64,000 bases of DNA, taken from the NCBI GenBank assembly GCA_944327245.1, contig CALVHD010000005.1, positions 1 to 64,000 on the forward strand, given 5' to 3'. Shown here piece by piece: positions 12,518-53,586 of the stretch. The stretch is from Candidatus Gastranaerophilales bacterium. Its GTDB lineage: Bacteria; Cyanobacteriota; Vampirovibrionia; Gastranaerophilales; Gastranaerophilaceae. Within the stretch, counting starts at the first letter, position 1; each line of letters begins with the position of its first letter. The notes below the pieces were generated by a model, which was not told the DNA's origin, made no database searches, and saw only the letters and a program-made list of their open reading frames with translations. Both the position numbers and the translations under genes were made by a program.

Positions 12518-13279
12518 CTAATGATTAATTTTTGCAAAGGCAAATGCAACAGATGCACATATTGCAAGGTTAATTGACTCAACATTATTTTCCATAAATA
12601 CAGATAACTTTTCATCGCTCAACTCGGCAATTTTATCACTTATTCCATTTGCTTCAGAGCCAAAAGCAAGAATATATTTATCTTTAAACTTATATTTAAA
12701 TAAATCATTCTTTCCGTCAACAACAGTAGAAATTAATTTATGGGACTTTTTTAAATCTTTAATAAAACTAATATCTTTCAATGAAATTATCGGAATTTTA
12801 AATATATTTTGAGCAGTTGCCCTTATTGTTTTTGAGTTATATAAATCAACACAATCACCAAATAAAATAATTCCGTCCACTCCAAAAGCCACTGCGCTTC
12901 TAATGATTGTTCCCAAATTGCCTGCATCTTTGATATTTTCCAAAAGGGCAATTTTATCTAAACTATAAAAAATATTTCTGTCTTGCGATTTTTCTTTAAT
13001 AATTCCTGCAACTTCAGATGGACTTTTAGTAGTGGTAATTTTCTTTAAAATTTCATCAGTAACATATACAAGCTTTTTTGCTTTTACTTTATCTATTAAA
13101 TTATTATTCTTTTTTACAAAAAAATATTCAAAAACAATCCCATCGTTAATAAAACCTTCAATTGTTTTTTGTCCGTCCGCAAAAATCAATTGCTGAGACT
13201 TTCTATATCGAGGCTTTTGAAGCTTTAGCGCAAATTTAATTAAATCATTTTGTACACTTGTAATTTCAACTATTTCCAT
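12518..13279 (-). CDS. TrmH/SpoU-family RNA 2'-O-methyltransferase
   Basis: An S-adenosylmethionine-dependent ribose methyltransferase of the SPOUT class acting on rRNA or tRNA. The three class signatures are present in order: NLGTIIRSAVAFGVDG (motif 1, containing the catalytic Arg), AFGSEANGI (motif 2) and SINLAICASVAFAFA (motif 3 at the C-terminus). The N-terminal 100 residues match the substrate-binding domain of the 23S rRNA-methylating RlmB/TsnR-like branch (VQNDLIKFALKLQKPRYR, ending in an FADG phrase). The start at 13279 gives MEIVEITS and overlaps the stop of the aminopeptidase gene by one base. The target nucleotide cannot be assigned. Confidence 0.88.
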   Translation of the reverse strand: MEIVEITSVQNDLIKFALKLQKPRYRKSQQLIFADGQKTIEGFINDGIVFEYFFVKKNNNLIDKVKAKKLVYVTDEILKKITTTKSPSEVAGIIKEKSQDRNIFYSLDKIALLENIKDAGNLGTIIRSAVAFGVDGIILFGDCVDLYNSKTIRATAQNIFKIPIISLKDISFIKDLKKSHKLISTVVDGKNDLFKYKFKDKYILAFGSEANGISDKIAELSDEKLSVFMENNVESINLAICASVAFAFAKINH

Positions 13280-14901
13280 TAAGCTTCGTCCATAAAATCT
13301 TGCTGCCAATTTTTTACAAAAATTCTTTCATTTTCATCTAAAAGACTATAATCAATTAAAACCTCCTCAAAGGGAAATTTTGTTAAGGTATGTTTTTTAT
13401 AATTTAAATCACTATAGACACAATTTTCAATTCTTACGCCAAACTCAATATTTTCACTTTTGCTTTTGCCATATAGCCCCGGTTCTATTGAATGAGTTTG
13501 ATAAGGCTTAATTATATCAGACGAACTCATTGAGAGTCTGGGCGGATTTTGATGAACAGAAGTACCTATGCCATGACCTAATCCATGGTTAAAATAAAAA
13601 CCGTCTTTTTCAAAAGGAGCCAAAACCTTTCTTGCCATTAAGTCAAGATTTTTAGCTGATATTTCATTTGAAATATAACAAACAATAAAAGCTTTTAATA
13701 CATTAGTGTATATTTTTTTATAAATGGGCTTTGGATTATTTCCAAAATAAAATGTTCTTGTTATGTCAGTTGCATATCCGCCCTCAAAATATCCGCCGCA
13801 ATCAAGCAGCAACAAACTTTCATTTGTTAAAATTTTATTTTTGTCATAGCTGGAATAATGAATAGAAGCAGTATTCTCATTAATAGAAAGAATTGTTTTA
13901 AAAGAAGGCATCATAGCACCTTGGTTTGACAATTCATCTTCAAAAATTCTAACCAAGTCCAATTCGCTTAAACCTGTTTTTAATTGCTTTTTAAAATTGT
14001 ATATAGCTAAATCTGTTTTTCGTGAAGCATTGAGCATATGTTCAATTACACTTTTAGGTTTTATTGAAGAAATTACGGAAAGATTATTTTGCTTTAATTC
14101 TTTAACCTTTTTAATCGATAGAAAATTTTCAAGAGTAATTTCATTAATATTTACAAATATTTCCGAATTTATAGATTGAATAAACCCTGTAAAATCTTTC
14201 AATTTCATGAATTTCAAGCCTTCAATTTTTATATCTTTCGGAATTTTATCCAAAAATAAAATATAATCATTTGATATAAAATCAAGATATAAAATTGAAC
14301 GAAAATTAGAAGAATATTTCATCTGATAACTTCTTAAATTGGTTAAATAAGAAATTTCATCCAAATTAAAAACCAACATCTTATCTATATTTTGATTAGT
14401 GTTTTTTAACTTTTGAATTTTAAAATTAAAATCATTTTTCTCAATATCGGAACTTACCAAAAATAATTTCGCTTTATTGTTCAACTCTAAATTTTTAACA
14501 TATTTTTCATCTAAATTATACTTTCTTAAATCAAAATATTTATCTAAGTTCCAATATTCATTTAAAGAAATATCGCTTGGAACATGCATAATTGTATTTT
14601 TTTTATATTTCTTTTTAAATGCGTCTAAAAAAGTTTCACCTAAATTCATTTTATATATTGAGACATTTTTAAAAGCCTGTTTTTCAACTAAAATATGATA
14701 TCTTGTATCAACAAAAATAGTAATTTTTCCATTTTTTTCGATAATTGCTTCACCTTCCGTTCCTGAAAAATTAGTCAAAACATTTAAAGGTGAACCTATA
14801 TAATGGCTTTTAAAATATGAATCTTTTGATTTCAACAAAAGCACTTCATCATCTTTTAACAAATTTGTATAAAATTTTATTTGTTCTTTTAAATTACTCA
14901 T
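13279..14901 (-). CDS. pepP: Xaa-Pro aminopeptidase (M24B family)
   Basis: A dinuclear-metal peptidase that removes the N-terminal residue ahead of proline. The C-terminal pita-bread domain has all five metal ligands in their usual settings: Asp in LLLDCGG, Asp in ATDITRTF, His in LGHGIGTSVHQNPP, Glu in SIEPGLYG and Glu in GVRIENC. The N-terminal creatinase-like domain occupies about residues 1-280. At 540 residues it is somewhat longer than E. coli PepP (about 440) and closer to the long bacterial form. It is 12 bases after the YjbQ gene and overlaps the methyltransferase gene by one base. Confidence 0.9.
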   Translation of the reverse strand: MSNLKEQIKFYTNLLKDDEVLLLKSKDSYFKSHYIGSPLNVLTNFSGTEGEAIIEKNGKITIFVDTRYHILVEKQAFKNVSIYKMNLGETFLDAFKKKYKKNTIMHVPSDISLNEYWNLDKYFDLRKYNLDEKYVKNLELNNKAKLFLVSSDIEKNDFNFKIQKLKNTNQNIDKMLVFNLDEISYLTNLRSYQMKYSSNFRSILYLDFISNDYILFLDKIPKDIKIEGLKFMKLKDFTGFIQSINSEIFVNINEITLENFLSIKKVKELKQNNLSVISSIKPKSVIEHMLNASRKTDLAIYNFKKQLKTGLSELDLVRIFEDELSNQGAMMPSFKTILSINENTASIHYSSYDKNKILTNESLLLLDCGGYFEGGYATDITRTFYFGNNPKPIYKKIYTNVLKAFIVCYISNEISAKNLDLMARKVLAPFEKDGFYFNHGLGHGIGTSVHQNPPRLSMSSSDIIKPYQTHSIEPGLYGKSKSENIEFGVRIENCVYSDLNYKKHTLTKFPFEEVLIDYSLLDENERIFVKNWQQDFMDEA

Positions 14902-14913
14902 AGCACACTTCTT

Positions 14914-15330
14914 TTAATAAATGACCGAAACAACAACTTGCTTTGTACTTGATTTTACATCAAAATCAAGTACAACAATTTTTTGATCTTCACCCAATAT
15001 TATTTTTTTATTTTCGACTCCAAGGGTAATATTATTTCCCAGCATTGCCGCCCTAAGGTGTGCGTGTGCATTCCCCTCATGCCAAGATAAATCATGTTTA
15101 TAAACTTTATTTAAGGGTATAATATTTTCCATAACAGAAGAAAAATCATTTGCCAAACCAAATTCTTGCTCCAGCGTTATAACTGATGCAGTAGAGGAAA
15201 CTATCGAAACATTAACTACAGCATTATTCTGATTAACATTAGAAACAATATTTTGAACTTTTGAAGTTATATCTATCATATCTTCAAAACCATTTGATGA
15301 AATAGAAAATTTTTCAATTATAACGCCCAT
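14914..15330 (-). CDS. YjbQ-family protein (UPF0047, secondary thiamine-phosphate synthase-like)
   Basis: The family signature is clear: WHEGNAHAHLRAAMLG in the middle, which supplies the conserved Glu and two His of the putative active site, and the ending GEDQKIVVLDFD. Length (138 residues) is standard. Some members show weak thiamine-phosphate synthase activity in genetic tests, but the true role of the family is unsettled. The gene lies 18 bases after the pyrophosphatase-like gene and 12 bases before the aminopeptidase gene, in one minus-strand run. Confidence 0.88.
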   Translation of the reverse strand: MGVIIEKFSISSNGFEDMIDITSKVQNIVSNVNQNNAVVNVSIVSSTASVITLEQEFGLANDFSSVMENIIPLNKVYKHDLSWHEGNAHAHLRAAMLGNNITLGVENKKIILGEDQKIVVLDFDVKSSTKQVVVSVIY

Positions 15331-15348: not shown

Positions 15349-17454
15349 TTATTTAAAAAACATTGGCGATAAAACAAACGCCAAAATTGCAAGAAATTTA
15401 ATTAATGAACTCAAACAAGGTGTAATTAAATCTTTTAAAAGCGAATATATGCTGTTATTTTGCTCTAATATACTGTATTGTGTTGAGATTGGCGCATTTA
15501 TGAATTCATCTTTAAAATATTTCTTTGCAGCCTTAGAAACTATTGCAGAATTTAATGATGAATATAATAAAACACTGCCGGACAAAATAGCACCAAAAAC
15601 AAACCCCATAAGCGCTTCTGTACCAAGCTTAAATGCAATAACCCAAAAAACCAGTACAACCATAGTTGTATAAAAAATTATCTGTATGGAAGATGTATTT
15701 GCAGCAGCACACACGCATTTCTCATAATCAGGGCGCATTTCATAACGCAAAATTTGAGGAAATCTTCTAAATTGATTTTTAACTTCCAAAATTAATCTTG
15801 AAGCAGTCTTGGATACTCCGCTTAAAATAAAAGAACAATACAAATAAGGTATAGAAGCACCAATAAACAAAGACGCTAAAACATAAGGATTTAAAATATC
15901 AACTTGTTCTAATTGAACATTTACGCTAAAAGCAATTAAAACGGATAATGCTGTTAAAATCGCTGTTGTAGTTAAGAAATTTTTACCTAAAGAAATAATA
16001 TAATATCCGATTTGTCCCAACATATCTCTATTTTTATCATATTCTGAAATTTCACCAATTTCATAGGTATTTGCAATAACGTCTATGTCATTAGAAACCA
16101 AAGCAAAAATATTAATACACATCATAATTCCAAAAGTCGAAATCATTCCCAATATTGCAATTGTAATAGCATAAATGCCAATCAAAGGCGCCTGCATACC
16201 ACCTGAGAGCAAAAATGAAGATATAATCGAAAACGCAATTATAATAACAGGCAAGAAAACGCCCATAAAACCTTCTTTTAAAGTTTGGACAATACAAGCA
16301 GACAAGCCTGCAATAGCAGAATTTGCAACATTTTTAACTGTTTTAAATTTTCCAAAAATATAGTTTGCATTTACAAAACAAACAATAAATCCTGCAAAAG
16401 AGCCGACAACAATAGCATAAAATAAACTTAAATCACCTAAAAACCAAGTTTTTATAACATAATAAGAAAAAATTGAAAACAGCACAATTGTACAAAAACC
16501 TGAAATAAAAAGTGCTCTTATAGGATTTTTAATTTTATTCATTTTAATAAACAAAATAACAATAATAGAAGCAAATACCCCGCTTGAAGCTATTATTAAA
16601 GGCAAAAATGCCCCCATTAAATTTAGTGCCATTGCACCTACAGCCATAGAAGCAACAATAACCGCACAAAAAGATAAAAACATATCCAAAGAAAGAGCAT
16701 TTACCTTAAATACACTTTTTGTAATACCCGATAAAAGCAAAAGCGGATTTCTTTTATCAAGCGCATCAATTTCACCTTCTAGTTGAGAAACTAATTCTAT
16801 TGCACCTGAGGCAGCCTTTTTTACAATTGAAGCCCCGACACTTGAAAATAAAACAACAATCGAAGCACCAAGAATAAATCCGTTGATAATCAAATAATCT
16901 TTATAAATATGATACAAAATAACTAAAGGCACTAACGCCAATCCGACAACAGCCATAGCAATTGCAACGCCGGAATTAAATGCTATTTTGTAAGCAGAAT
17001 TTATTGAAGCATTTTTCCCTTTAGAAATTTTAGCCGAAGCTCTTGTTGCAATAAAATTTGTAATAAAACCGCAAAAAATAGCAAAGAAAACTCCGACTAA
17101 ATAACATAAAACAAAAGATATGCCTAACGGTTTAAGTAAAATTACCGCAAGCAAAAATACAACAAAAAATAAAAACTTATTCTCTCTTTTAAAAAACAAA
17201 CTTACGCCATTATAGAAATATTTAATAATTTTATCTAAGGCAGCATATTTATAGTTGTTATATGAAATTTCACAAATTTTACAAGAAGACAATAATAACG
17301 CTAAAGAGCCTGACAAAAGCGCTACCCATTTTGATTTTGTAGAAGATAAATCAACAAAATATACCCCATAACTTACATATAAGGTTATAAACAAAAACAA
17401 CCACAATACCGTATACCAAAAAATAATCTTTATTTCTGTTTTATTTCTATCCAT
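15349..17454 (-). CDS. Proton-pyrophosphatase (HppA) homologue lacking catalytic residues
   Basis: A 701-residue polytopic membrane protein that aligns without gaps, from memory, to membrane-bound ion-pumping pyrophosphatases over several conserved blocks. The pyrophosphate/Mg motifs are destroyed. The block DVGADLVGKVE reads SGAIELVSQLE (residues 216-226) while KAA before it and RNP after it stay. DNVGDNVGD reads SGITKSVFK (242-250) while the later Asp of the ADLFE block stays. GNTTKA reads GYYIIS. GDTVGDPFKD near the C-terminus reads NNSIYSLLKD (666-675). The block EVKNQFRRFP with PDYEKCV is well kept. The frame is open and full length, so this is not a decaying pseudogene by appearance. 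It cannot plausibly hydrolyse pyrophosphate. A non-catalytic channel, sensor or scaffold role is inferred. Confidence 0.85.
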   Translation of the reverse strand: MDRNKTEIKIIFWYTVLWLFLFITLYVSYGVYFVDLSSTKSKWVALLSGSLALLLSSCKICEISYNNYKYAALDKIIKYFYNGVSLFFKRENKFLFFVVFLLAVILLKPLGISFVLCYLVGVFFAIFCGFITNFIATRASAKISKGKNASINSAYKIAFNSGVAIAMAVVGLALVPLVILYHIYKDYLIINGFILGASIVVLFSSVGASIVKKAASGAIELVSQLEGEIDALDKRNPLLLLSGITKSVFKVNALSLDMFLSFCAVIVASMAVGAMALNLMGAFLPLIIASSGVFASIIVILFIKMNKIKNPIRALFISGFCTIVLFSIFSYYVIKTWFLGDLSLFYAIVVGSFAGFIVCFVNANYIFGKFKTVKNVANSAIAGLSACIVQTLKEGFMGVFLPVIIIAFSIISSFLLSGGMQAPLIGIYAITIAILGMISTFGIMMCINIFALVSNDIDVIANTYEIGEISEYDKNRDMLGQIGYYIISLGKNFLTTTAILTALSVLIAFSVNVQLEQVDILNPYVLASLFIGASIPYLYCSFILSGVSKTASRLILEVKNQFRRFPQILRYEMRPDYEKCVCAAANTSSIQIIFYTTMVVLVFWVIAFKLGTEALMGFVFGAILSGSVLLYSSLNSAIVSKAAKKYFKDEFINAPISTQYSILEQNNSIYSLLKDLITPCLSSLIKFLAILAFVLSPMFFK

Positions 17455-17524: not shown

Positions 17525-18298
17525 TTAAGGCTTCTTTACAAGAATGGATTTCTTTTCATCTAAAATATAAGCAATTATTGAATTAATTTCTTTTAATAAA
17601 TCTTTTGATGATGAAGATTTTCTTACGGCAACAGCATAATATTCCCGAGAATATGCCCTGTTTATAATTCTATAGTTACCGTTGTTTAAACCACTCAAAA
17701 TACAATCATCTCCAAATATCGCATCAATTTTACCCTGTTTTAAATATTTGAATGCCTCATAATAAGTTTTAGCACCTATTATATAAGCATTTGGAACAAC
17801 CAATCTAACAACTTTTTCACCCGTTGTTCCCATAACAACCCCTAATTTGCCTTGTTTATTAAAATAACTCAAACTATTGATTTTAGAATTTTTTGCAATC
17901 ATTATTTTTTGATTTGCAACAAAATAAGGCATAGAAAAATCAATAACAAGCTTTCTTTTATCATTAACACTTAAAGTTGCAACCAAAATATCTACTTCTT
18001 TAGAGTTTAATTTTTCAATTCTGTTTTGCGCATTTACACTTACATATTTGATATTTTGCGGAGATTCAAACCCAAAAATACCATCCGCTATGTATTGAGC
18101 AATTTGTACATCAATTCCTCTTAGCTCGGCATTCTTATAATAACCAAAAGGAGGTGAATCTGTTTTAACACCCGCAATTAAATATCCTCTGTTTTTAATG
18201 ACTTCTAAATCGGTAAGTCCGTCCTTTTTGTGTAAACAACCCGACAAAGAAAAAACAGAAAAAAGTAAAATTAATATTAAGAATATATACTTTTTCAT
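17525..18298 (-). CDS. Amino-acid-type ABC transporter substrate-binding lipoprotein (SBP family 3)
   Basis: The 257-residue protein begins with a lipoprotein signal peptide ending in LSGC (lipid-anchored Cys 21). It then shows the family 3 binding-protein opening: LEVIKNRGYLIAGVKTDSPPFGYY, split here as VIKNRGYLIAG and SPPFGYY, followed by LRGIDVQIAQYIAD. Such proteins capture polar amino acids in the periplasm for an ABC importer. No permease or ATPase gene is adjacent, so it is either an orphan receptor or works with a transporter encoded elsewhere. Its start is only 23 bases from the divergent yitT start; a TATGAT at 18315-18310 on the minus strand is a likely -10. Confidence 0.88.
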   Translation of the reverse strand: MKKYIFLILILLFSVFSLSGCLHKKDGLTDLEVIKNRGYLIAGVKTDSPPFGYYKNAELRGIDVQIAQYIADGIFGFESPQNIKYVSVNAQNRIEKLNSKEVDILVATLSVNDKRKLVIDFSMPYFVANQKIMIAKNSKINSLSYFNKQGKLGVVMGTTGEKVVRLVVPNAYIIGAKTYYEAFKYLKQGKIDAIFGDDCILSGLNNGNYRIINRAYSREYYAVAVRKSSSSKDLLKEINSIIAYILDEKKSILVKKP

Positions 18299-18321: not shown

Positions 18322-19152
18322 ATGAAAAACTTAATTATTAACATATTACTGTGCACATTTGGTGCATTTTTGGCAGCTTTTGCACTTGAGTGCTTTTTAG
18401 TACCCAACCAGATAATCGATGGCGGAATTGTCGGCATTTCAATAATGTCCAGCTATATTACAAAAATTAATTTAGGCGTTTTTCTGGTTGTCTTAAATAT
18501 ACCTTTTGTTCTGCTTGCATTAAATGAATTTGGCATGACATTTATATTTAAAGCATCATACAGCGTTTGTATGCTTGCTTTATTTGTCAATATAATGCAT
18601 AAGATTCCGCCAATAACAAACGATCTTCTTTTATCGGCATGTTTTGGAGGGGCAATACTTGGTATCGGCGTCGGAATTGTACTTAAAAATAACGCTTGTA
18701 TGGATGGAACTGAAATTTTAGCTATGAAAATTTCAAAAAAATATCCATATTCTGTCGGCGAAATTATTATGTTTATCAACGTTTTTATTTTTGCATGCGC
18801 AGGATTTTTGTTTGGATGGGAAGAAGCAATGTATTCAGCCCTTACATACGTTGTTGCATACAAAGCTATAGACATGATTGTTCAAGGATTAAGTGAAGAA
18901 AAATCAATAAGAATTATTTCAGATAAAGGCAAAATAATAGGTCAAGCTATAATACAAAATTTAGATAAAACAGTCACATACATAGACGCTCAAGGCGGCT
19001 ACAGTAAAAACCCAAAAACAATGGTTTATTGCATTGCACCTCGTATAGAACTTTATAAATTAAAAGAACTTGTCGTAAGCATTGATAAAGATGCTTTTAT
19101 AACCATTGAAAATGTTCACGAAGTATACGGCAAACGTTATAAAAAAAATTAA
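18322..19152 (+). CDS. YitT-family membrane protein (DUF161 plus C-terminal DUF2179)
   Basis: The 276 residues begin with five or six membrane helices of the YitT type, including the opening LLCTFGAFLAAFALECFL, the phrase PNQIIDGGIVGIS, and the second half-repeat GIGVGIVLKNNACMDGTEILA. A soluble C-terminal DUF2179 domain of about 80 residues follows, ending in ITIENVHEVYGKRYK. Function is unknown; some members influence export of small molecules or metabolite resistance. The gene is divergent from the solute-binding lipoprotein gene and is followed by a two-way terminator. Confidence 0.88.
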   Translation: MKNLIINILLCTFGAFLAAFALECFLVPNQIIDGGIVGISIMSSYITKINLGVFLVVLNIPFVLLALNEFGMTFIFKASYSVCMLALFVNIMHKIPPITNDLLLSACFGGAILGIGVGIVLKNNACMDGTEILAMKISKKYPYSVGEIIMFINVFIFACAGFLFGWEEAMYSALTYVVAYKAIDMIVQGLSEEKSIRIISDKGKIIGQAIIQNLDKTVTYIDAQGGYSKNPKTMVYCIAPRIELYKLKELVVSIDKDAFITIENVHEVYGKRYKKN

Positions 19153-39628: not shown

Positions 39629-41575
39629 CTAACCAATAATTTCATTTAATTTTCTTAATGTATCATAAGAATAACAATCAACAGGCGTTTTACCATCAAC
39701 ATCTTTAACAGACATCCCTTTTTTAATTATTTCAGAAGCTTTTTCAAAACCGAAAATTTTAGTTAATCTGCTTAACTCATCAGCCCCATAATAAAACAAA
39801 GGTGTTCTGCCGTTATTATCTTTAACGTTTAGTCCTTCTTCAATTATTTCAGAGGCCTCTTTAACACCTAAAATTTGCGTCATAACATATAAATTAGCAT
39901 AGTTATAATAAAACAGAGGCGTTCTGCCGTTTATGTCTTTAATGTTCATTTGCACTTTTAATAATTCAGAAATATTTTTAGACCCCAAAATTTCAACCAA
40001 GTCACTTATTTGACTGCTTATATAATCAAATAAAGGAGTTCTGCCGTCTATATCTTGTACAAGCATACCTTTTCCGATTATTCCGGAAGCATTTTTGTGG
40101 CCTAGACTTTTACTAAGTCCTTTAAGCTTATCAGAATTATAATAAAACAAAGGAGTTCTGCCTTCATTATCTTGTACTGACATTCCCTTTTCAATTATTT
40201 TTGAAGCATTTTCTACTCCTAAAATGTCAACCAGTGCATTAAATTTATAATAATCATATTGAAACAAAGGAGTTGTGCCTTCATTATCTTGAGTAGACAA
40301 TCCTTTTTCTAATATTTCAGAAGTTTTTTCTACTCCGAAAATTTCCGCTAATTCTTTCAGCTCATTTGCTCCATACATAAACAATGGAGTTTTCCCTTCT
40401 TTATCTTGGACAGTCAAGGCTTTTTCAAATACTTCTTGAGCCTTTTGAGGTCCTAAAATTTGAGCTACTGTATAAATTTGATGAGAATTATAACTAAACA
40501 AAGGAGTTCTACCTTCGCTATCTTGAACAAATAATCCTTTTTCCAACATTTCTGAGGCTTTTTGAGTGCCTAAAATTTGAGCAGTTGTATAAATTTCATA
40601 AGAACCATAATTAAACAAAGGAGTTCTTCCTTTATTATCTTGAGTTAACATTCCTTTTTCCAATATTTCAGAAGTTTTTTGCTCACCTAAAATCTGAGCT
40701 AATGCACCAAGCTGTTTAGAATCATATTCAAATATCGGAGTTTTTCCTTCATTGTCTTGAATATAAATACCATTTTTAATTGCTTCGGATAATTTTTCTG
40801 ATCCCAATACTTCCGCTAAGGAAGAAAGCCTTCCGTAATAATAATCAAACAATACGGTTTTACCGTTATTATCCTGAATTGTCATGCTCTTTTTAACAAA
40901 ATCAAAAAACTTCTCCGGTCCCATAATTTCATTCAAAGCACTATATTCATTAAAATTATACCAAGAAGAAAACATGGGGGTTTCGCCGTCATTTTTTCTA
41001 ACAAACATCCCTTTTTCAATTACTTCAGGAGCTTTTTCGGGTCCTAAAATTTGTGCTAATTGCTTAAGTGCATATGAATCATAATTAAACAAAGGAGTTC
41101 TTCCATCTATATCTTGAACAAACAAACCTGTTTCAATTACTTCAGGAGCTTTTTGGGGTCCCAAAACTTTTGCAATTGCTTTAAGTCCTTCTGCACCATA
41201 TCCAAAAAGAGGAGTTCTTCCGTATACATTTTTCATTGACATTGCAATTTCTGCAACTTCAGGCTGCGGATTTTCATCTTGTAATTTTTGTACAATGTAT
41301 GAATCATTGTCATGGAAAAAAGTATTATAATTATAATTATCACCTACATCAAGCAATGGAGATTTTGAGGCTGCTATATACCTAACCAACTCATCATGCA
41401 AAACAGGTTCACTGCCCTTAAAAGCAATATTTGAAAATGCTCTTAGGGTGCTTAAAGGCACTTTTTGAAAATCAATATTTGACTTTATTGAGCTTGAAAC
41501 AAAATTGTTTTTTTGTACAGGCGAATTTTTTTTAACAGCTTTTCCGCTAAACAAATTAATAGGCGCTACTCTCAT
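39629..41575 (-). CDS. Tandem 39-residue ankyrin-like repeat protein
   Basis: The 648 residues comprise an N-terminal region of about 110 residues without signal peptide, opening MRVAPI and containing AFKG (51-54), followed by thirteen full copies and one partial copy of a 39-residue repeat. Each copy reads roughly GRTPLFxYxSxxLxxLAxILG, then a helix ending EKGMxVQDxx. GRTPLF resembles the GxTPLHxA start of ankyrin repeats, but His is absent and each unit has six extra residues (ankyrin has 33). The second helix, ILGxEKASEIIEKG, is strongly conserved. A solenoid for protein binding is expected; no catalytic domain is present. In this lineage such proteins could interact with host or envelope targets, but no export signal is visible. 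Confidence 0.82.
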   Translation of the reverse strand: MRVAPINLFSGKAVKKNSPVQKNNFVSSSIKSNIDFQKVPLSTLRAFSNIAFKGSEPVLHDELVRYIAASKSPLLDVGDNYNYNTFFHDNDSYIVQKLQDENPQPEVAEIAMSMKNVYGRTPLFGYGAEGLKAIAKVLGPQKAPEVIETGLFVQDIDGRTPLFNYDSYALKQLAQILGPEKAPEVIEKGMFVRKNDGETPMFSSWYNFNEYSALNEIMGPEKFFDFVKKSMTIQDNNGKTVLFDYYYGRLSSLAEVLGSEKLSEAIKNGIYIQDNEGKTPIFEYDSKQLGALAQILGEQKTSEILEKGMLTQDNKGRTPLFNYGSYEIYTTAQILGTQKASEMLEKGLFVQDSEGRTPLFSYNSHQIYTVAQILGPQKAQEVFEKALTVQDKEGKTPLFMYGANELKELAEIFGVEKTSEILEKGLSTQDNEGTTPLFQYDYYKFNALVDILGVENASKIIEKGMSVQDNEGRTPLFYYNSDKLKGLSKSLGHKNASGIIGKGMLVQDIDGRTPLFDYISSQISDLVEILGSKNISELLKVQMNIKDINGRTPLFYYNYANLYVMTQILGVKEASEIIEEGLNVKDNNGRTPLFYYGADELSRLTKIFGFEKASEIIKKGMSVKDVDGKTPVDCYSYDTLRKLNEIIG

Positions 41576-41651: not shown

Positions 41652-44600
41652 CTACGGAAGATCCCAATTGAAACTTTTAATGTAATTATCCTTATTAATA
41701 TCCCCTTGAACCTTAGCTCTAAAATATCTGGGTTCTGGATTTTCTATTTCTATAGAAGGTATTTTTCTTAACTTTTCTATAGTTTCAGCGCTTCTATTTT
41801 TGTCTTTGCTTCCTGATAAATTTCCTATAAGCTGATTTATAGACACATTTCCAACTTTTCCAAGCGCATTTGAAATATTTTGAGATAATTTTCCATAAAT
41901 TCTTATGTCAGCATAATTCTCCAATATACTGTAATATCCGTCTAAGTACATGCTAAGATTTTTACCTTGAGAATATATTTGAAGATTTTTAATTTCGCCG
42001 CTATTTATGCTTAATTGTCCGTTGATGTGTTCAAACTCGCCTGTTTTGTAGGGAGTTAAGACTTCAATTAAATTATTCAATGAAAAACCTAAAAGTCCGT
42101 TTTTAAATAAATTTCCTGCTCTCAATAAATATTCCAAAGAACCCAATTTTGGCATTTTACCTTTATTGATTGAAAATTCAACTTCCGATTTAACGTTTTT
42201 GATATTATCGGGCGTATTTATATTCTTTGCACTTAGAACAATTGACCCGTTCATTTTACCAAATATTTGATTTTCTAAATTTAAAAATTGCTTAGCCAAA
42301 GTATTTGCATCGCAACCGTTCATATCAGCCCTAAGAGCTATTTTTGAAGTATTCATTCCATATCTGCCCTTAGCAGAAATTGAGCCGTTTGCAATATCTA
42401 AAACAATATTTTTTAAATGAAACTCATTATCGTAGTAATTAAAATCACCCTTTAAATTTTGTGCATTAATTTTTCCATATACAACATCTCTGATATTAAA
42501 ACTTCCGTCTTTAATAACAATATCTTCCGGTTTTATCAATAACTCTTGTTTTTTATTAATATCCGTTTTTTGAGATGGAACCATTAAATTATTTAATAAG
42601 TCTGCAATATCAATTTTTTGAGAAACTATATCAACATTATTAATAATATACGGCGGATCAAATTTATTTTGTGCTCTAACATTTAAAGTCAAATCACTTT
42701 CTTTGTTCTTTGCATTTATATTTGAATCAATAAAATCATTAGAAATATTTACCTTGATGTTATTAATCTGTGTATCATACAAAGGAATATCCAAATCTTG
42801 CAAGTTTGCTCTGCCTGTAACTTTTGGCTCTTTTGAATTACCGTTTAAACTAATATCACATTCAAAATTTCCCTGCTTTAACAAAGACTTCTTAAACACC
42901 AAATTCAAAATTCTAACATTAATTGGTGCAGAAGTTGAAATTCTTAGGTTGTTATAATATATATCATTATTTTTTGAAATTGCTTCCCCGTTAACTCTTA
43001 GAGCGGTAATAGGGTTTATTTTACCATTTTGGTTTTTAATATATTTAATTAATCTCAAATTCCTAATAGAAGCAATATTTTGATTTACTGCAATTTTTCC
43101 TGCAATCTCTCTATCATGGTTAATATCTCCAAGGTTTGCACCGCTGAATGAAATATCCGAGTTTCTTGGAATTTTAGCCGAAAAATCAATTTGATAATCA
43201 TTCATATCACCCCTGAAGCTTCCTTTTACGGGAACTTCTCCTGAAATTTTAACAGGATAGGTTAAATAAGGATTAATTATATTATCACAGGTTATTTCAT
43301 TTGCGATAGTAGAAAAATTAGCATTTAATTCTTTTTTGTTAAAAATGTCTTTTATTTGAGCATTAATAAATACAGGCATAGATTCATAATCAATATTCAG
43401 CGAATTTAATTTTAAATCATCGTTTTTTAAAATAATTTTGCCTGATTTTAGTTTGCTCGAATTTACCTTTATCTTTGGAATAATTTGATTTAATTTTTTG
43501 AGATTTATATTATTCAAATAAACGACCAAATCACCTTTTGGTGTTTTAGACATAATATTATCTATATAGCCTTTTATTTTTACACTGCCTTGAGCAATAA
43601 CAGCATCAAAATTTTCAAAAATTAATTTATTTTCTTTTATTTTAATTAATCCTGAATTAAATAAAATATTTCTGTTTTCTTGGCTGTTTAAACCGATAAT
43701 ATAGCCATTGTTTTTAATATTATCAAAATTAATATTGTTGATATCAATTAAACCGCTCGAATTAAGATTCATTTTTGAATAAAAATTAATTTCAGAAAGA
43801 TTTGAGATTAATTTATGAAAAGATTTATTTAAAAAGACAGCATTCTTAGCTTCGTTTAAAACATCTTTAAATGAAATTTTATTAGATATAATATTACTTT
43901 TAAATTCAATAATTCCATCTTTTTTGATTTTATCCAAAGATGTATTTGAGCTAAATTGCAGATTAAATTTTGAATTATTAATAAACAACTCAAAAATAGC
44001 AGACTGGCTTGAGCCAAAAGCAAGAGAACCACTGACATTTTTTGCGCCCAAACCGTTCTTTAAAATAATTTTGTTATTTTTCAGAACTAAATTTCCACTC
44101 AAAGCTAAAGAATTTATAAATTCTTTATTTTCATAATCATCAATTTTACCTTTAAGATTAATATTAGCACTCATTATTCCGCTTGTAGCAGCAATTTGCT
44201 TAACTAACGGCAGATAAGGCTTCGAAACAAGACTATTGCTAAATATCTTTATAATACTGCTTGTCTTTGCATTTGTAATTTTCGTGTTTAAATCTACTTC
44301 ACCTTTTGTGTTGCCTTTTCCGGACAAAAGAAAATCAGCACCATCCATCTTCCCTTTAATTTCTTTAAAAATCAAATCTCTGTCGCTGAAAACAAGCTTG
44401 CAATCTCCATTTGTCAACTTCGCTGCAAGTCCGTCAATCTTTGCTGATGCATTTCTGGCTTCAAAATTGCCAAAAATCTGAGCATCCTTAATTGTTCCTT
44501 GTGTTTTAATATCAATATTTCCGTAACCGGATATATCCATAATAGGAACAGGACCAATATTAAAACCAATTATCTGTTGAACCGGCACAAGATAAAGTTT

Positions 44601-46013
44601 TGCAAATGCTAAATCAATATTTTTTGTAGACTTAACTGAATATTTTCCATATAAAGAATCGTCAAGATTAGATATCCCATCCACAATTACATATTCATTT
44701 TGAGGAGTGTATACTCTTGTGTAAACTCTCATTTTATCTTTCATAAAAATAACATTCACATCATTTTGAATATATGACTTTGGATAATTTGGTATATGGA
44801 CATTTTCAGCCTTAAGATTTCCGACAATATCAACAGGCAAAAAACTCTTCAGTGTCATATTTCCGCTTAAAATTGCGTGGAAATTAGATTTTTTTAATGT
44901 TGGAATGCCTTTAGGGTTAAAATATATTAAATTATCAGGCAAAAAATATAAAAATCTGTTTAATTGCGTATTATTTAAAACTATATTTATATCGGGCTTA
45001 GGATTTTTAGAAAATACTTTTTCAACTTTACCTTTTGCTTTAACACTAAGCTCATCAGATACAATATTAAAATCAGAAAATTCCAATATATTGTTTTCGA
45101 TTTTAAACTTCGAATTAGCTATAAAATGCTGATATGGGGCAATTATTTTATTATTACTTAATACAAAGCTGGGTTTGTTAATTTTAATTTGAAAAATTTT
45201 ATTATAATCATCGTCTTTATTTGAACTGATATTCAAATCTAAACCGCCGTTAAAGCTATAAATATCTTTTGATATATATTTTTTTACAACATCATTAAAT
45301 ATATAAAGATTAACGTCGTTTAAGTTAATATTCAAATTGACATCTTTTGAATTTTTAAAAGGATATTTTGAATTAATATCCACGCTTAAATTTGCAACTT
45401 GCTCTTTTGAATTAATTAGTGTGGTTATTTTTCCTTTTTGCGAAAGTTTAAAAATCTTTTGTTTTTTTGATATATCAACATCTGTGTTAGACAAACATAA
45501 TTTTATATTACTTTTAATCTTATATTCATCAAAAAATGTAAGATTAATATTATTAATTTTTGAAACCAATCTGGTTAAATCAAAATCGGAATTTTTTAAC
45601 TTATCAAAATCTTTTATTTTAAGCGCACTTAATAAATCGATTTCCCCTTCTTTATTTCTCGATATATTTATTGCAATTTCTTCAACCGTCAAATCTTTTA
45701 TATTTATTTTTTTTACCAAAAGACCAAAAGGTTTAATTGTTATATTTGGATTTTTTATGGTCACAAACTTGGTTGAACGATTTAAATTATAAATATTTAT
45801 ACAATTTGCTTTATATGTTATATCTAATTTTGGGTTAAATGAAATATCTGATTTTTCTGTTTCTATCTTTAAGCCTGTATTTTTTTCAAAAATTCTTTCT
45901 AAATTATCGACAGAAATAAAATTTTTTATCAGAACAGCAATAAAAATTAAAAATAAAACCAATGCTGCAGATATATAATATTCTTTTTTGATTGTAAGTA
46001 ATTTTCTTAACAT
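41652..46013 (-). CDS. Giant AsmA-like protein (1453 residues)
   Basis: One N-terminal membrane helix (about residues 14-33) is followed by about 1400 residues of Asn/Lys/Ile-rich beta-strand sequence, as in AsmA/TamB/YhdP/YdbH proteins, which form long hydrophobic grooves spanning the periplasm for phospholipid transport to the outer membrane. The C-terminal AsmA-like domain includes a LEYLLRAGN phrase, GEFEHINGQLSINSGEI, QGKNLSMYLDGYYSIL and IYGKLS. These match in order the end of the protein at 50212-53586, so the two are paralogues. The gene is divergent from the exported-protein/TonB operon, with about 100 bases between starts. No terminator was seen at its 3' end. Confidence 0.82.
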   Translation of the reverse strand: MLRKLLTIKKEYYISAALVLFLIFIAVLIKNFISVDNLERIFEKNTGLKIETEKSDISFNPKLDITYKANCINIYNLNRSTKFVTIKNPNITIKPFGLLVKKINIKDLTVEEIAINISRNKEGEIDLLSALKIKDFDKLKNSDFDLTRLVSKINNINLTFFDEYKIKSNIKLCLSNTDVDISKKQKIFKLSQKGKITTLINSKEQVANLSVDINSKYPFKNSKDVNLNINLNDVNLYIFNDVVKKYISKDIYSFNGGLDLNISSNKDDDYNKIFQIKINKPSFVLSNNKIIAPYQHFIANSKFKIENNILEFSDFNIVSDELSVKAKGKVEKVFSKNPKPDINIVLNNTQLNRFLYFLPDNLIYFNPKGIPTLKKSNFHAILSGNMTLKSFLPVDIVGNLKAENVHIPNYPKSYIQNDVNVIFMKDKMRVYTRVYTPQNEYVIVDGISNLDDSLYGKYSVKSTKNIDLAFAKLYLVPVQQIIGFNIGPVPIMDISGYGNIDIKTQGTIKDAQIFGNFEARNASAKIDGLAAKLTNGDCKLVFSDRDLIFKEIKGKMDGADFLLSGKGNTKGEVDLNTKITNAKTSSIIKIFSNSLVSKPYLPLVKQIAATSGIMSANINLKGKIDDYENKEFINSLALSGNLVLKNNKIILKNGLGAKNVSGSLAFGSSQSAIFELFINNSKFNLQFSSNTSLDKIKKDGIIEFKSNIISNKISFKDVLNEAKNAVFLNKSFHKLISNLSEINFYSKMNLNSSGLIDINNINFDNIKNNGYIIGLNSQENRNILFNSGLIKIKENKLIFENFDAVIAQGSVKIKGYIDNIMSKTPKGDLVVYLNNINLKKLNQIIPKIKVNSSKLKSGKIILKNDDLKLNSLNIDYESMPVFINAQIKDIFNKKELNANFSTIANEITCDNIINPYLTYPVKISGEVPVKGSFRGDMNDYQIDFSAKIPRNSDISFSGANLGDINHDREIAGKIAVNQNIASIRNLRLIKYIKNQNGKINPITALRVNGEAISKNNDIYYNNLRISTSAPINVRILNLVFKKSLLKQGNFECDISLNGNSKEPKVTGRANLQDLDIPLYDTQINNIKVNISNDFIDSNINAKNKESDLTLNVRAQNKFDPPYIINNVDIVSQKIDIADLLNNLMVPSQKTDINKKQELLIKPEDIVIKDGSFNIRDVVYGKINAQNLKGDFNYYDNEFHLKNIVLDIANGSISAKGRYGMNTSKIALRADMNGCDANTLAKQFLNLENQIFGKMNGSIVLSAKNINTPDNIKNVKSEVEFSINKGKMPKLGSLEYLLRAGNLFKNGLLGFSLNNLIEVLTPYKTGEFEHINGQLSINSGEIKNLQIYSQGKNLSMYLDGYYSILENYADIRIYGKLSQNISNALGKVGNVSINQLIGNLSGSKDKNRSAETIEKLRKIPSIEIENPEPRYFRAKVQGDINKDNYIKSFNWDLP

Positions 46014-50211: not shown

Positions 50212-53200
50212 ATGATAATCTATTATAAAAAAAATACAATAAAGAAAATTAAATCCGTTTTATCTGAAATTAAATACAAAAGGAGTGTTAATCGCGCTCC
50301 CTTTTTTGCTTTTTTGAAATTACTCTTCCTGTCTTTTATAACTATTGTCGGAATAACATATTTAACATATTTATTTTTGCTTCCCAATTTTATTAATGAA
50401 AACAAAATAGAAGCCTACGTTAACAATTATTTAACCAAAAACACAAAGCTGATTTTAGATATCGAAGGCTTTAAAATGTATCCAAACTATAAATTTAACC
50501 TTGGACTAAAAGCAGATAAAATCAGCTTAAAATATTCAAAAAATAAAGATTTTCTAACTCTTGACAAACCTAATATCGAATTAAATCTTATTACTCTTCT
50601 GTTCAATTATATCGACTTAAATAAAATTAAAGCTCAAAAAATTACTCTCAACACAAATTTTACAAAAAACAAAAAATATAGTTGTTTTGATTATTTTAGT
50701 CCTGAAATTTTGGGAGATAAATATGATAATTCCAAATTTGAACTAAGAAATATTAAAATACTTGTAGATAAATTCGATTTAAATATATATGACGAAAATG
50801 TTAAGAAGAATTTCTATCTGAAAGCAAATGAAGTTAAATTGACATCATCCTATTTTAATAACAAAGGTCAACGCCCTTTTAACATAAAAGCAAAAGGATT
50901 TTCAGCTGCCGGCAATAACAAAATAGCAGACTTTAATTTAAACTTAAACTTCAAACTAAAACAAAAAACAATCAAACGCTACAGAAAAATTATTGAAAAA
51001 CTTAACTATAACCCGTTAATATATGCAGACAAATATAATTTTAAGGCATTTATTGGAGTTGATTTAAAAATTACGCCCCTAGATGAGCGATTAAACATTG
51101 ACGGCGAAGTAAATTTAAAAGATTATTCATTTAACATTGACAATATCCGCATTCCCAAAAACAATCTTCAACTCTTATTTAAAGGCGATAAAATAATTTC
51201 AAACTGTGATTTTAATTTAATAAAAAATCAATTTATAAAAATCAAATCCGTTACTTCGATTTCAAAAAATAAATTTATTGAATTAAAACTTAGCTCAAAC
51301 GACATTAACCTTAAAGAATTAAGTGTAATTATTAATGCATTCAATAGAATTTTAAACATTAATTTAAAATATGATGAAATTATTTTAAACGGTTTCGCAA
51401 ATGCCGATTTATACATTAAAAGCAATTTTAAAACTATCAATTCAAATGGTACTTTAAAAATTAAAGATGCCTCAATTGTTCACAAAAAAACAGGTTTTAA
51501 AATTAAAGACATAAACTCAAATGTCAATTTTGCAAACAATAAAATAAACATTTTAAACACTTATGCCTACATTAACAATTCAAAATTTTATTTAGACGGA
51601 TTAATTGATGAAAAAACAAATCTTAATTTAACACTGCATTCCGATTTAATAAACATAGCACAACTTTTAACTATACTAAAATCAACGCCTGTTTTATCAT
51701 CCGTGTTAAAAAATTTAGAAGATTGCGATTTTAAAGACGGATTTTTTAAAACTCAGGCCAGAATCAAAGGAAATTTAAAAAATCCCCTAATAGAAACAAA
51801 TTCAACAATAAAAAATCTAAAAATATATTTAAAACCTTATAAAACAAACATCTCGACAAATGAAGTTGTAATCAGCGCAAATCCTAAAAACAATAAACTT
51901 GATTTTATAGAAATACTTGCATCAAACAATAAAATCAAAAACCAAAACAACTTAATAATAATTCCAAAATTAAACCTAAAAATAAATGAAAACGACATAT
52001 TAATCGAACAATCCAAACTATATATAGATAAAATCTCAGCTGATTTTCAAGGAGCAATTAATTCCTACAAAACTAAAGAAGCCCAAATTAATTTATCATT
52101 AAACGGGCTAATTCCCCAGCATAACAAACTCATAATAATCAAAAACAAAGCTCCTCAATTAAAAACAAATATAACAATAAAAAAAGATATAATGGAAATT
52201 AAAAATCTTAACTTAATTTCAGATAACAAAAACATTATAGACATAAAAGGGATAATCTCTAAGTTATCCAAAAATCCTGAATTTAACAATCTTAAAATCA
52301 ATATACCGGAAAAAATTTCTTTAATTTTACCGCAATTAGACAACACCTCTCTGATTGCATCCGGCAAAATAGAGCTTTTGGGAAATATAAAAAAACCTGA
52401 TATTAATGCAGACTTAACAATCAACAATCTAAACTACAAGCCATATTATTTAAACATAAAAGATATGTTGTTAAACATTAAAAACTCAAAAGCATACATC
52501 AACATCATCAAAGGAAGATTAGTTGACTCTGATTTTGATTTAATTGCGGAAGGAAAATACAAAAACAACCTTATAGACATTGATTTTCTTAATATTCAAT
52601 CAAACTATATTAATCTTTCAGTATTGGAAAAATTAAACCAAAACACTCAGTCACTAAACACTATACCTATAAAAATCCAAAATTTAAAAGGCAATATAAT
52701 GGCTCTTGAAATGATGGATATATTATTTAATTCAATATATTTTGAAGGAAGTCTGGAAAACAATATTCTAAATCTTTCACACTATAGCGCAAATGTTTTT
52801 AACGGAAGTGCTTCAGGTTCAATTAATATCAATTTAAAAAACAATAAAATTAAAACACAAACAATTTTAAAAGAAATCAATGTAAGATTACTTTCAAATC
52901 AAATAAAGGAATTTTCCATTGCGGCCAGCGGAAAACTTAGTGCTCTTACAAATGTTGAATTTCAAGGATTTAACTATAGCTTAATCACAAAAACCCTAAA
53001 AGGATATATTAAATTTAATATTAATGATGGCGAATTATCCCAATTTGCCAAACTGGAAAGATATCTGCAAGCAGGAAATATTTTATCTCAAAGCATATTA
53101 AAACTTAGCTTAAACTCGGCTCTTTCTGCCGTTACAAAGCAAAATACAGGAGACTTTAAAACAATAGAAGGAACATTTAAAATTGATAATTCTTGGATAA

Positions 53201-53586
53201 ATATTCAATATATTAAAACACAAGGCACAAATATGAGCACATATCTTGAAGGCAGGGTTAATATGCTATCTAAATATTGTGCTGTAAAAGTATATGGCAA
53301 AATTCCAACTTCTATGGTTAACATTATGGGTAATATAGGCAGTTTCACAACAAATCAGATTGTAAACAAGATGTCTGATGATGCTAAAGAAATTATTAAA
53401 TCAATAACAATATCACCGATAGAAAAAATGCTCTCAACTAAAATTCCTGATGAATATATTGAAAAAATTCCGCCTCTGACTGTTTCAAATATGCCTACAA
53501 GAGAATTTATGGTTATAATAAACGGTCCTGTTGAACAGAAATCCTCTGTTAAATATTTCAAGTGGAACTTAAAAGAAACAAACTAA
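50212..53586 (+). CDS. AsmA-like protein (1124 residues) cotranscribed with tonB-exbBDD
   Basis: A single N-terminal membrane helix (about residues 38-62, FLSFITIVGITYLTYLFLL core) after a basic cytoplasmic tail anchors about 1060 residues of beta-rich sequence in the periplasm. The C-terminal domain (GDFKTIEGTFKIDNSWI, QGTNMSTYLEGRVNML, VYGKIPTSM, FKWNL end) aligns with the end of the larger protein at 41652-46013. AsmA-family proteins form hydrophobic bridges for lipids between membranes. It starts one base after the second ExbD stop, so it is surely part of the same transcript; this suggests that proton-motive-force machinery and the lipid-bridge protein function together. The actual cargo is unknown. 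Confidence 0.82.
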   Translation: MIIYYKKNTIKKIKSVLSEIKYKRSVNRAPFFAFLKLLFLSFITIVGITYLTYLFLLPNFINENKIEAYVNNYLTKNTKLILDIEGFKMYPNYKFNLGLKADKISLKYSKNKDFLTLDKPNIELNLITLLFNYIDLNKIKAQKITLNTNFTKNKKYSCFDYFSPEILGDKYDNSKFELRNIKILVDKFDLNIYDENVKKNFYLKANEVKLTSSYFNNKGQRPFNIKAKGFSAAGNNKIADFNLNLNFKLKQKTIKRYRKIIEKLNYNPLIYADKYNFKAFIGVDLKITPLDERLNIDGEVNLKDYSFNIDNIRIPKNNLQLLFKGDKIISNCDFNLIKNQFIKIKSVTSISKNKFIELKLSSNDINLKELSVIINAFNRILNINLKYDEIILNGFANADLYIKSNFKTINSNGTLKIKDASIVHKKTGFKIKDINSNVNFANNKINILNTYAYINNSKFYLDGLIDEKTNLNLTLHSDLINIAQLLTILKSTPVLSSVLKNLEDCDFKDGFFKTQARIKGNLKNPLIETNSTIKNLKIYLKPYKTNISTNEVVISANPKNNKLDFIEILASNNKIKNQNNLIIIPKLNLKINENDILIEQSKLYIDKISADFQGAINSYKTKEAQINLSLNGLIPQHNKLIIIKNKAPQLKTNITIKKDIMEIKNLNLISDNKNIIDIKGIISKLSKNPEFNNLKINIPEKISLILPQLDNTSLIASGKIELLGNIKKPDINADLTINNLNYKPYYLNIKDMLLNIKNSKAYINIIKGRLVDSDFDLIAEGKYKNNLIDIDFLNIQSNYINLSVLEKLNQNTQSLNTIPIKIQNLKGNIMALEMMDILFNSIYFEGSLENNILNLSHYSANVFNGSASGSININLKNNKIKTQTILKEINVRLLSNQIKEFSIAASGKLSALTNVEFQGFNYSLITKTLKGYIKFNINDGELSQFAKLERYLQAGNILSQSILKLSLNSALSAVTKQNTGDFKTIEGTFKIDNSWINIQYIKTQGTNMSTYLEGRVNMLSKYCAVKVYGKIPTSMVNIMGNIGSFTTNQIVNKMSDDAKEIIKSITISPIEKMLSTKIPDEYIEKIPPLTVSNMPTREFMVIINGPVEQKSSVKYFKWNLKETN

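Follow-up and report, generated by a model that had tools for sequence, protein, structure and literature searches.

A probably non-catalytic homologue of the membrane pyrophosphatases maintained by purifying selection in Candidatus Gastranaerophilales

In membrane pseudoenzymes such as the inactive rhomboids (iRhoms), the fold of a membrane enzyme has remained under selection after the loss of catalysis, and these proteins typically bind partners. The membrane pyrophosphatases (mPPases, HppA) are ion pumps, and their active site and ion path lie in the inner ring of helices. They form homodimers that function asymmetrically and meet at helices 10, 13, and 15, and A12.46 together with E6.53 marks the K+-dependent, Na+-type pumps (PMC10897367). 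In an early genome paper on the Melainabacteria, mPPases were counted as one of the sources of the membrane potential (PMC3787301). No published non-catalytic mPPase was found in the open-access papers searched (subscription papers lay outside the search), in agreement with an initial annotation of the DNA considered here, which knew of no described member of this kind.

The window, i.e., the whole stretch of 64,000 nucleotides that was analyzed (contig CALVHD010000005.1, from a Candidatus Gastranaerophilales bacterium, a member of the Melainabacteria, which are gut-dwelling relatives of the cyanobacteria), carries the following gene:

15349..17454, minus strand: pHPP, predicted non-catalytic membrane-pyrophosphatase (mPPase, HppA) homologue (Pfam, AlphaFold2, Foldseek, ligand count)

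The frame is uninterrupted over its 701 codons (701 aa). It matches the Pfam profile H_PPase (PF03030) with 307.9 bits over profile positions 2-644 of 645 and, in the PDB, the plant VrPPase and the Thermotoga TmPPase with E values of 1e-51 to 3e-49. An intact 701-residue frame homologous to mPPases, as initially reported, is thereby confirmed; the alignment had also been described as gap-free, yet it contains several short gaps along its full length. The best 36 Foldseek matches of the AlphaFold2 model in the PDB are all mPPases (TmPPase, TM 0.84), and the model scores well (mean pLDDT 87.5, pTM 0.91; input alignment of 24 rows, one of them a catalytic mPPase), but it is not fully independent evidence, since AlphaFold2 was trained on mPPases and a catalytic relative was in the alignment. 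The protein L106, at first taken for a relative, proved to be an ordinary catalytic mPPase; alignment A2, which contained it, was set aside, but L106 also entered the AlphaFold alignment. The predicted structure thus supports the mPPase fold claimed in the initial annotation, but not its count of 16 helices: because of an extra N-terminal helix, pHPP probably has 17, compared with 16 in VrPPase. Whole-length homology and fold (PF03030; PDB matches) both place pHPP in the family.

The active site was mapped in VrPPase numbering, and 11 acidic or Asn Mg ligands were scored. Three segments of the former site were delimited:

16684..16818, minus strand: former helix 5-6 substrate loop, residues 213-257; D253S, D257E, K261Q, D279S, D283K, D287K; K250 and D294 kept (VrPPase mapping)
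15982..16113, minus strand: former helix 11-12 motif, residues 448-491; D500N, D507N, D530G, N534Y; K541 kept (site mapping)
15397..15534, minus strand: former helix 15-16 motif, residues 641-686; D691K, D723N, D727S; K694, K695, K730, D731, and K742 kept (site mapping)

D731 is the only one of the 11 ligands retained; the other ten have become D253S, D257E, D279S, D283K, D287K, D507N, N534Y, D691K, D723N, and D727S. The replacement motifs first quoted for this protein (SGAIELVSQLE, SGITKSVFK, GYYIIS, and NNSIYSLLKD) are each exact. The loss of all pyrophosphate-binding residues, which was claimed along with them, stands for the acids and motifs (10/11 ligands gone) but is worded too strongly, because the four substrate lysines that were checked (K250, K541, K694, and K730) are all retained. 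The ion gate (R5.50, D6.50, E6.53/E6.57, and K16.50) is incomplete: R5.50 is replaced by S, E6.53 by L, and E6.57 by A, while D6.50 (D294) and K16.50 (K742) are still present.

A misalignment hiding the ligands was rejected on the strength of Asp counts, motif searches, and a catalytic control set. The inner-ring helices and catalytic loops of pHPP contain nine Asp residues, whereas catalytic orthologues have 16-18 there, and a search of the whole protein found no catalytic mPPase motif. The same procedure applied to other full-length mPPases of the phylum found an intact site in every one, which indicates that it creates no false degeneracy. That pHPP could still be a pyrophosphatase by means of other residues is extremely improbable: D731 and four lysines remain, but 10 of the 11 acidic or Asn ligands are gone and not found elsewhere in the protein, and the Asp, Asn, and Lys residues of the site are completely conserved in mPPases (PMC10897367). 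Judged from its sequence, pHPP almost certainly performs neither pyrophosphate (PPi) hydrolysis nor pumping.

The gene belongs to a conserved block, in the order YitT, SBP3, hppA, UPF0047, M24 peptidase, and SpoU methylase (synteny), whose other members in the window are:

18322..19152, plus strand: YitT family membrane protein gene, left border of the block (Pfam PF02588; synteny)
17525..18298, minus strand: family-3 solute-binding (SBP3) lipoprotein gene, directly upstream of pHPP, about 70 bp (Pfam PF00497; synteny)
14914..15330, minus strand: UPF0047 (YjbQ-like) gene, 18 bp downstream of pHPP (Pfam PF01894; synteny)
13279..14901, minus strand: M24 metallopeptidase gene (Pfam PF00557; synteny; neighbor-gene tree)
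12518..13309, minus strand: SpoU-type RNA methylase gene (Pfam PF00588; synteny)

In the sister genera g36 and g37, and in two species of g26, the hppA slot of this block is occupied by a catalytic hppA in which every residue is present. This enzyme has A12.46 and E6.53 and is K+-dependent and probably Na+-pumping. Because a catalytic orthologue occupies the same locus in these genera, pHPP is, by gene position and sequence, an orthologue of the K+-dependent pump that was inactivated in place. An origin as a duplicate of the cell's own K+-independent hppA was rejected by the tree, where the latter lies on a distant branch, and by synteny. Strict coupling of pHPP to UPF0047 or to SBP3 was likewise rejected, as each of these genes is found without pHPP and one pHPP carrier lacks UPF0047. 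The SBP3 gene (17525-18298) has no adjoining ABC permease gene and is a neighbor of hppA in both catalytic and inactive lineages; the dN/dS of UPF0047 (14914-15330) is 0.20, about twice that of the other locus genes measured.

Intact pHPP is present in 24 of the 28 genomes of the window genus (Candidatus Gastranaerophilales), all genomes compared being metagenome-assembled. Intact orthologues are therefore not missing from the close relatives: the 24 proteins are 692-714 aa long, share 25-85% identity, and have no internal stop. They keep from none to three of the 11 metal ligands; R5.50 is found in none of them and E6.53 in two. Searched for through the phylum, the degenerate form was found in two genera of one family only. 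Four species of the genus (L122, L123, L124, and L125) have a clean deletion of pHPP with the flanking genes in place, which suggests that the protein is dispensable in some species. The deletion point lies between SBP3 and either M24 or UPF0047, and three of the four also lack UPF0047.

Elsewhere in the window, two very large open reading frames have no Pfam match (41652-46013, 1453 aa; 50212-53586, 1124 aa), and positions 39629-41575 encode a 648-aa protein with ankyrin-repeat matches. Frames of 1457-1458 aa adjoin the YitT gene in genomes G145 and G164 (L122 and L125), and these are possibly homologous to the frame at 41652-46013.

Among five close orthologues, the dN/dS of pHPP is 0.06-0.15, with a median of 0.098 (NG86), compared with 0.10 for the neighboring M24 and SBP3 genes, 0.09 for the K+-independent catalytic hppA of the window genus, and 0.06 for the K+-dependent one of a sister genus; at a synonymous divergence of about 1, single values are rough, while the comparison between genes is even-handed. 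pHPP is thus kept by purifying selection like an ordinary gene, and a recent pseudogene or an assembly error was rejected by the 24 intact orthologues together with the low dN/dS. A functionless remnant in slow decay would agree with the rapid divergence over the long term (identities as low as 25% in the genus), with the four clean deletions, and with a dN/dS of 0.25 in a second inactive group described below. However, this reading is very improbable, and largely refuted already, in view of 24 intact frames of about 700 codons, a dN/dS of about 0.10 that equals that of neighboring genes, and conserved segments specific to the pHPP family. Descent from a catalytic enzyme (locus, trees), loss of the catalytic residues, and upkeep by purifying selection are all found in pHPP. 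The pseudoenzyme proposed in the initial annotation is accordingly supported by ligand loss, intact orthologues, a dN/dS of about 0.10, and the predicted fold.

Genus g26 contains the second inactive hppA group (L112-L114 and L163-L165), with open frames of 608-656 aa from which most of catalytic loops 5-6 and 15-16 has been deleted; its dN/dS is about 0.25. In the neighbor-gene tree of M24, the inactive species of g26 are interleaved with species whose copy is still catalytic, and the catalytic genus g36 is the sister group of the window genus. This arrangement favors at least two, perhaps three, independent losses of catalysis. A single loss, with transfer, behind both inactive groups would agree with the hppA tree, in which the two groups join, but they do so on long branches and the M24 tree mixes inactive with catalytic species, so that this history is less favored.

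Almost all genomes of the family also encode a K+-independent H+-PPase. It is absent from 14 of the 15 family genomes with a catalytic K+-dependent copy; the exception with both catalytic types, G326, has a contamination of about 3%. Among the 24 carriers of pHPP, the K+-independent enzyme is full in 22 and a fragment in one, and it occurs in five of the six carriers of the second inactive type. The genome that contains the window also has a separate catalytic hppA; this second gene, on contig 30 of G000, encodes about 810 aa with all catalytic residues. Soluble pyrophosphatases of families I and II were not found in 15 genomes, where one sub-threshold DHHA2 match of 52 residues was seen in G084, and the idea that a soluble enzyme made the mPPases redundant was rejected on the basis of this absence. 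The most parsimonious account would be that pyrophosphate removal passed to the K+-independent enzyme, leaving the resident pump free.

The presence of a full catalytic partner in 22 of the 24 carriers also bears on the hypothesis that pHPP is an inactive subunit, which would form a heterodimer with the K+-independent H+-PPase of the same cell and modulate it. mPPases are dimeric with linked subunits (PMC10897367), and of the helices of pHPP, helix 13 is one of the better conserved. However, the K+-dependent branch from which pHPP comes is far removed from the K+-independent enzyme, no special conservation is seen in helices 10 and 15, and four species of the genus, as well as most other genera, have the K+-independent enzyme alone. 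We therefore regard such a heterodimer as rather unlikely.

In G110 (L113; 97% complete), an inactive hppA is the only one found, and K+-independent hppA and soluble enzymes of families I and II were not found; there may be either an assembly gap or some other way of removing pyrophosphate. No hppA of any kind was found in G002 and G042 (genus g3; L128-L129), where the UPF0047-M24 part of the block is present. In another family of the same class, an otherwise canonical hppA (L181 and L190 of G587) has one in-frame stop, which may reflect a pseudogene, a sequencing error, or recoding.

Across the 24 orthologues, site acids are kept at 16% vs 62% for invariant acids outside the site (n = 3), and site lysines at 65% vs 33% for invariant lysines in the rest of the protein. 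In catalytic orthologues the site has a net charge of -8, compared with +1 to +7 in the pHPP family, where D691 has become K or R in 22 and D283 in 18 of the 24 members. The former acid positions outpace the average column in their rate of change, which would be expected after the loss of catalysis; K541, K694, K742, D294, and the K or R at 691 are still conserved. These features could be those of a metal-free anion sensor, in which the Mg5-PPi cage was rebuilt as a lysine-rich site that would bind pyrophosphate, phosphate, or another anion without hydrolysis and signal through the membrane. The preference for substrate lysines over acids, the turn to positive charge, and the four of four lysines in the window protein agree with this idea. 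On the other hand, the lysine positions as a set are not significantly above average columns (p 0.15), catalytic loop 11-12 is among the least conserved parts, the second group has lost most of its 5-6 and 15-16 loops, and the enrichment in lysine may come partly from an AT-rich genome; a sensor of this type is thus unlikely.

Conservation has also moved within the protein. The inner ring of catalytic mPPases (helices 5, 6, 11, 12, 15, and 16) far exceeds their outer ring in conservation (p 7e-25). The pHPP family has lost this advantage of the inner ring, and its conservation is slightly higher in the outer one (p 0.03). On these grounds it appears quite unlikely that pHPP conducts ions through the former path, as a channel or an uncoupled carrier independent of pyrophosphate, even though the buried D6.50/K16.50 pair is retained in 18 of the 24 pHPP members and in five of the six proteins of the second group: R5.50 has been lost, as has the gate Glu, and a buried salt bridge may be retained for folding alone. 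Of the three roles offered in the initial annotation, a plain channel is the least favored, because the inner ring, which forms the ion path, has lost its privileged conservation along with the Arg and Glu of the gate.

The conservation hot spots of pHPP are residues 24-49, 185-196, 519-530, and 553-577; loops 4-5 and 12-13 carry the conserved motifs KDY and DILNP. Two segments stand out, for which the side of the membrane is that expected from mPPase topology:

17260..17454, minus strand: extra N-terminal helix, periplasmic loop (VYFVDxTSTKSKW), and helix M1, residues 1-65 (conservation; AlphaFold2 helices)
15712..15798, minus strand: end of helix 13 and cytosolic loop 13-14 (QFRxFPQILRxEMRPDYEKCV), residues 553-581 (conserved in the degenerate family)

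Residues 1-65 form the most conserved region of pHPP, with a rank of 0.64-0.85 vs 0.12-0.23 in catalytic mPPases. Since a decaying protein would not be expected to gain family-specific conserved features, these hairpin and loop segments look like binding surfaces.

Strong selection despite the loss of the metal-binding residues suggests another job for pHPP in the membrane. We propose, with a probability of about 0.5, that it is a scaffold or regulatory subunit in the membrane, non-hydrolytic and acting through contacts with other proteins. Its starting point was a catalytic K+-dependent, probably Na+-pumping mPPase at the same locus, whose hydrolytic center and ion gate were dismantled in lineages that also possess a K+-independent H+-PPase. 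The predicted multi-helix fold has been retained under ordinary purifying selection, and the protein would act without pyrophosphate turnover: a partner would be bound by the N-terminal hairpin and the periplasmic loop within it, as well as by helix 13 and loop 13-14 on the cytosolic side. Against a scaffold stand the lack of any partner protein found, the deletion of pHPP in four species of the genus, and the continued conservation of former-site residues that a pure scaffold does not obviously need. A broader scheme is more tentative and, as a whole, somewhat doubtful: takeover by the H+-PPase may be a recurrent route, along which the metal cage of the Na+-type pump was lost independently in at least two lineages to give a non-hydrolytic membrane protein, receptor or scaffold, whose pocket is rich in lysine and whose conserved periplasmic hairpin is new.

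An inactive mPPase branch that is under selection and has evolved repeatedly would be the first pseudoenzyme of this pump family found so far. Since the locus contains a catalytic orthologue in some sister genera and an inactive one in others, the steps by which pump chemistry is lost become directly testable. There are also consequences for annotation: Pfam labels pHPP an H+ pyrophosphatase far above its cut-off, whereas the NCBIfam mPPase equivalog does not (367 bits, below the cut-off of 546; 940 for a catalytic orthologue). The pump inventory of these gut bacteria is therefore overcounted where annotation rests on the Pfam match, and the inference of membrane potential made for the Melainabacteria (PMC3787301) should not be extended to pHPP.

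Compared with known systems, pHPP is a relative of the mPPases by homology and fold and, by active site and gate, no functional member. With the K+-dependent mPPases of the sister genera and of Thermotoga maritima it has in common whole-length homology, the predicted fold, D6.50/K16.50, and the substrate lysines, and with those of the sister genera also the gene position. Unlike them, it lacks 10 of the 11 acidic or Asn Mg-PPi ligands, R5.50, and the gate Glu; its site charge has gone from -8 to about +4, and its conservation lies on outer helices and loops. The K+-independent H+-PPase of the same genome has the same superfamily and fold but differs in its distant branch, its length of about 810 aa, and its complete set of catalytic residues. 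The iRhoms belong to an unrelated family, and the ancestor of pHPP was a primary ion pump; in both cases, however, a membrane enzyme fold has been kept under selection without its catalytic residues.
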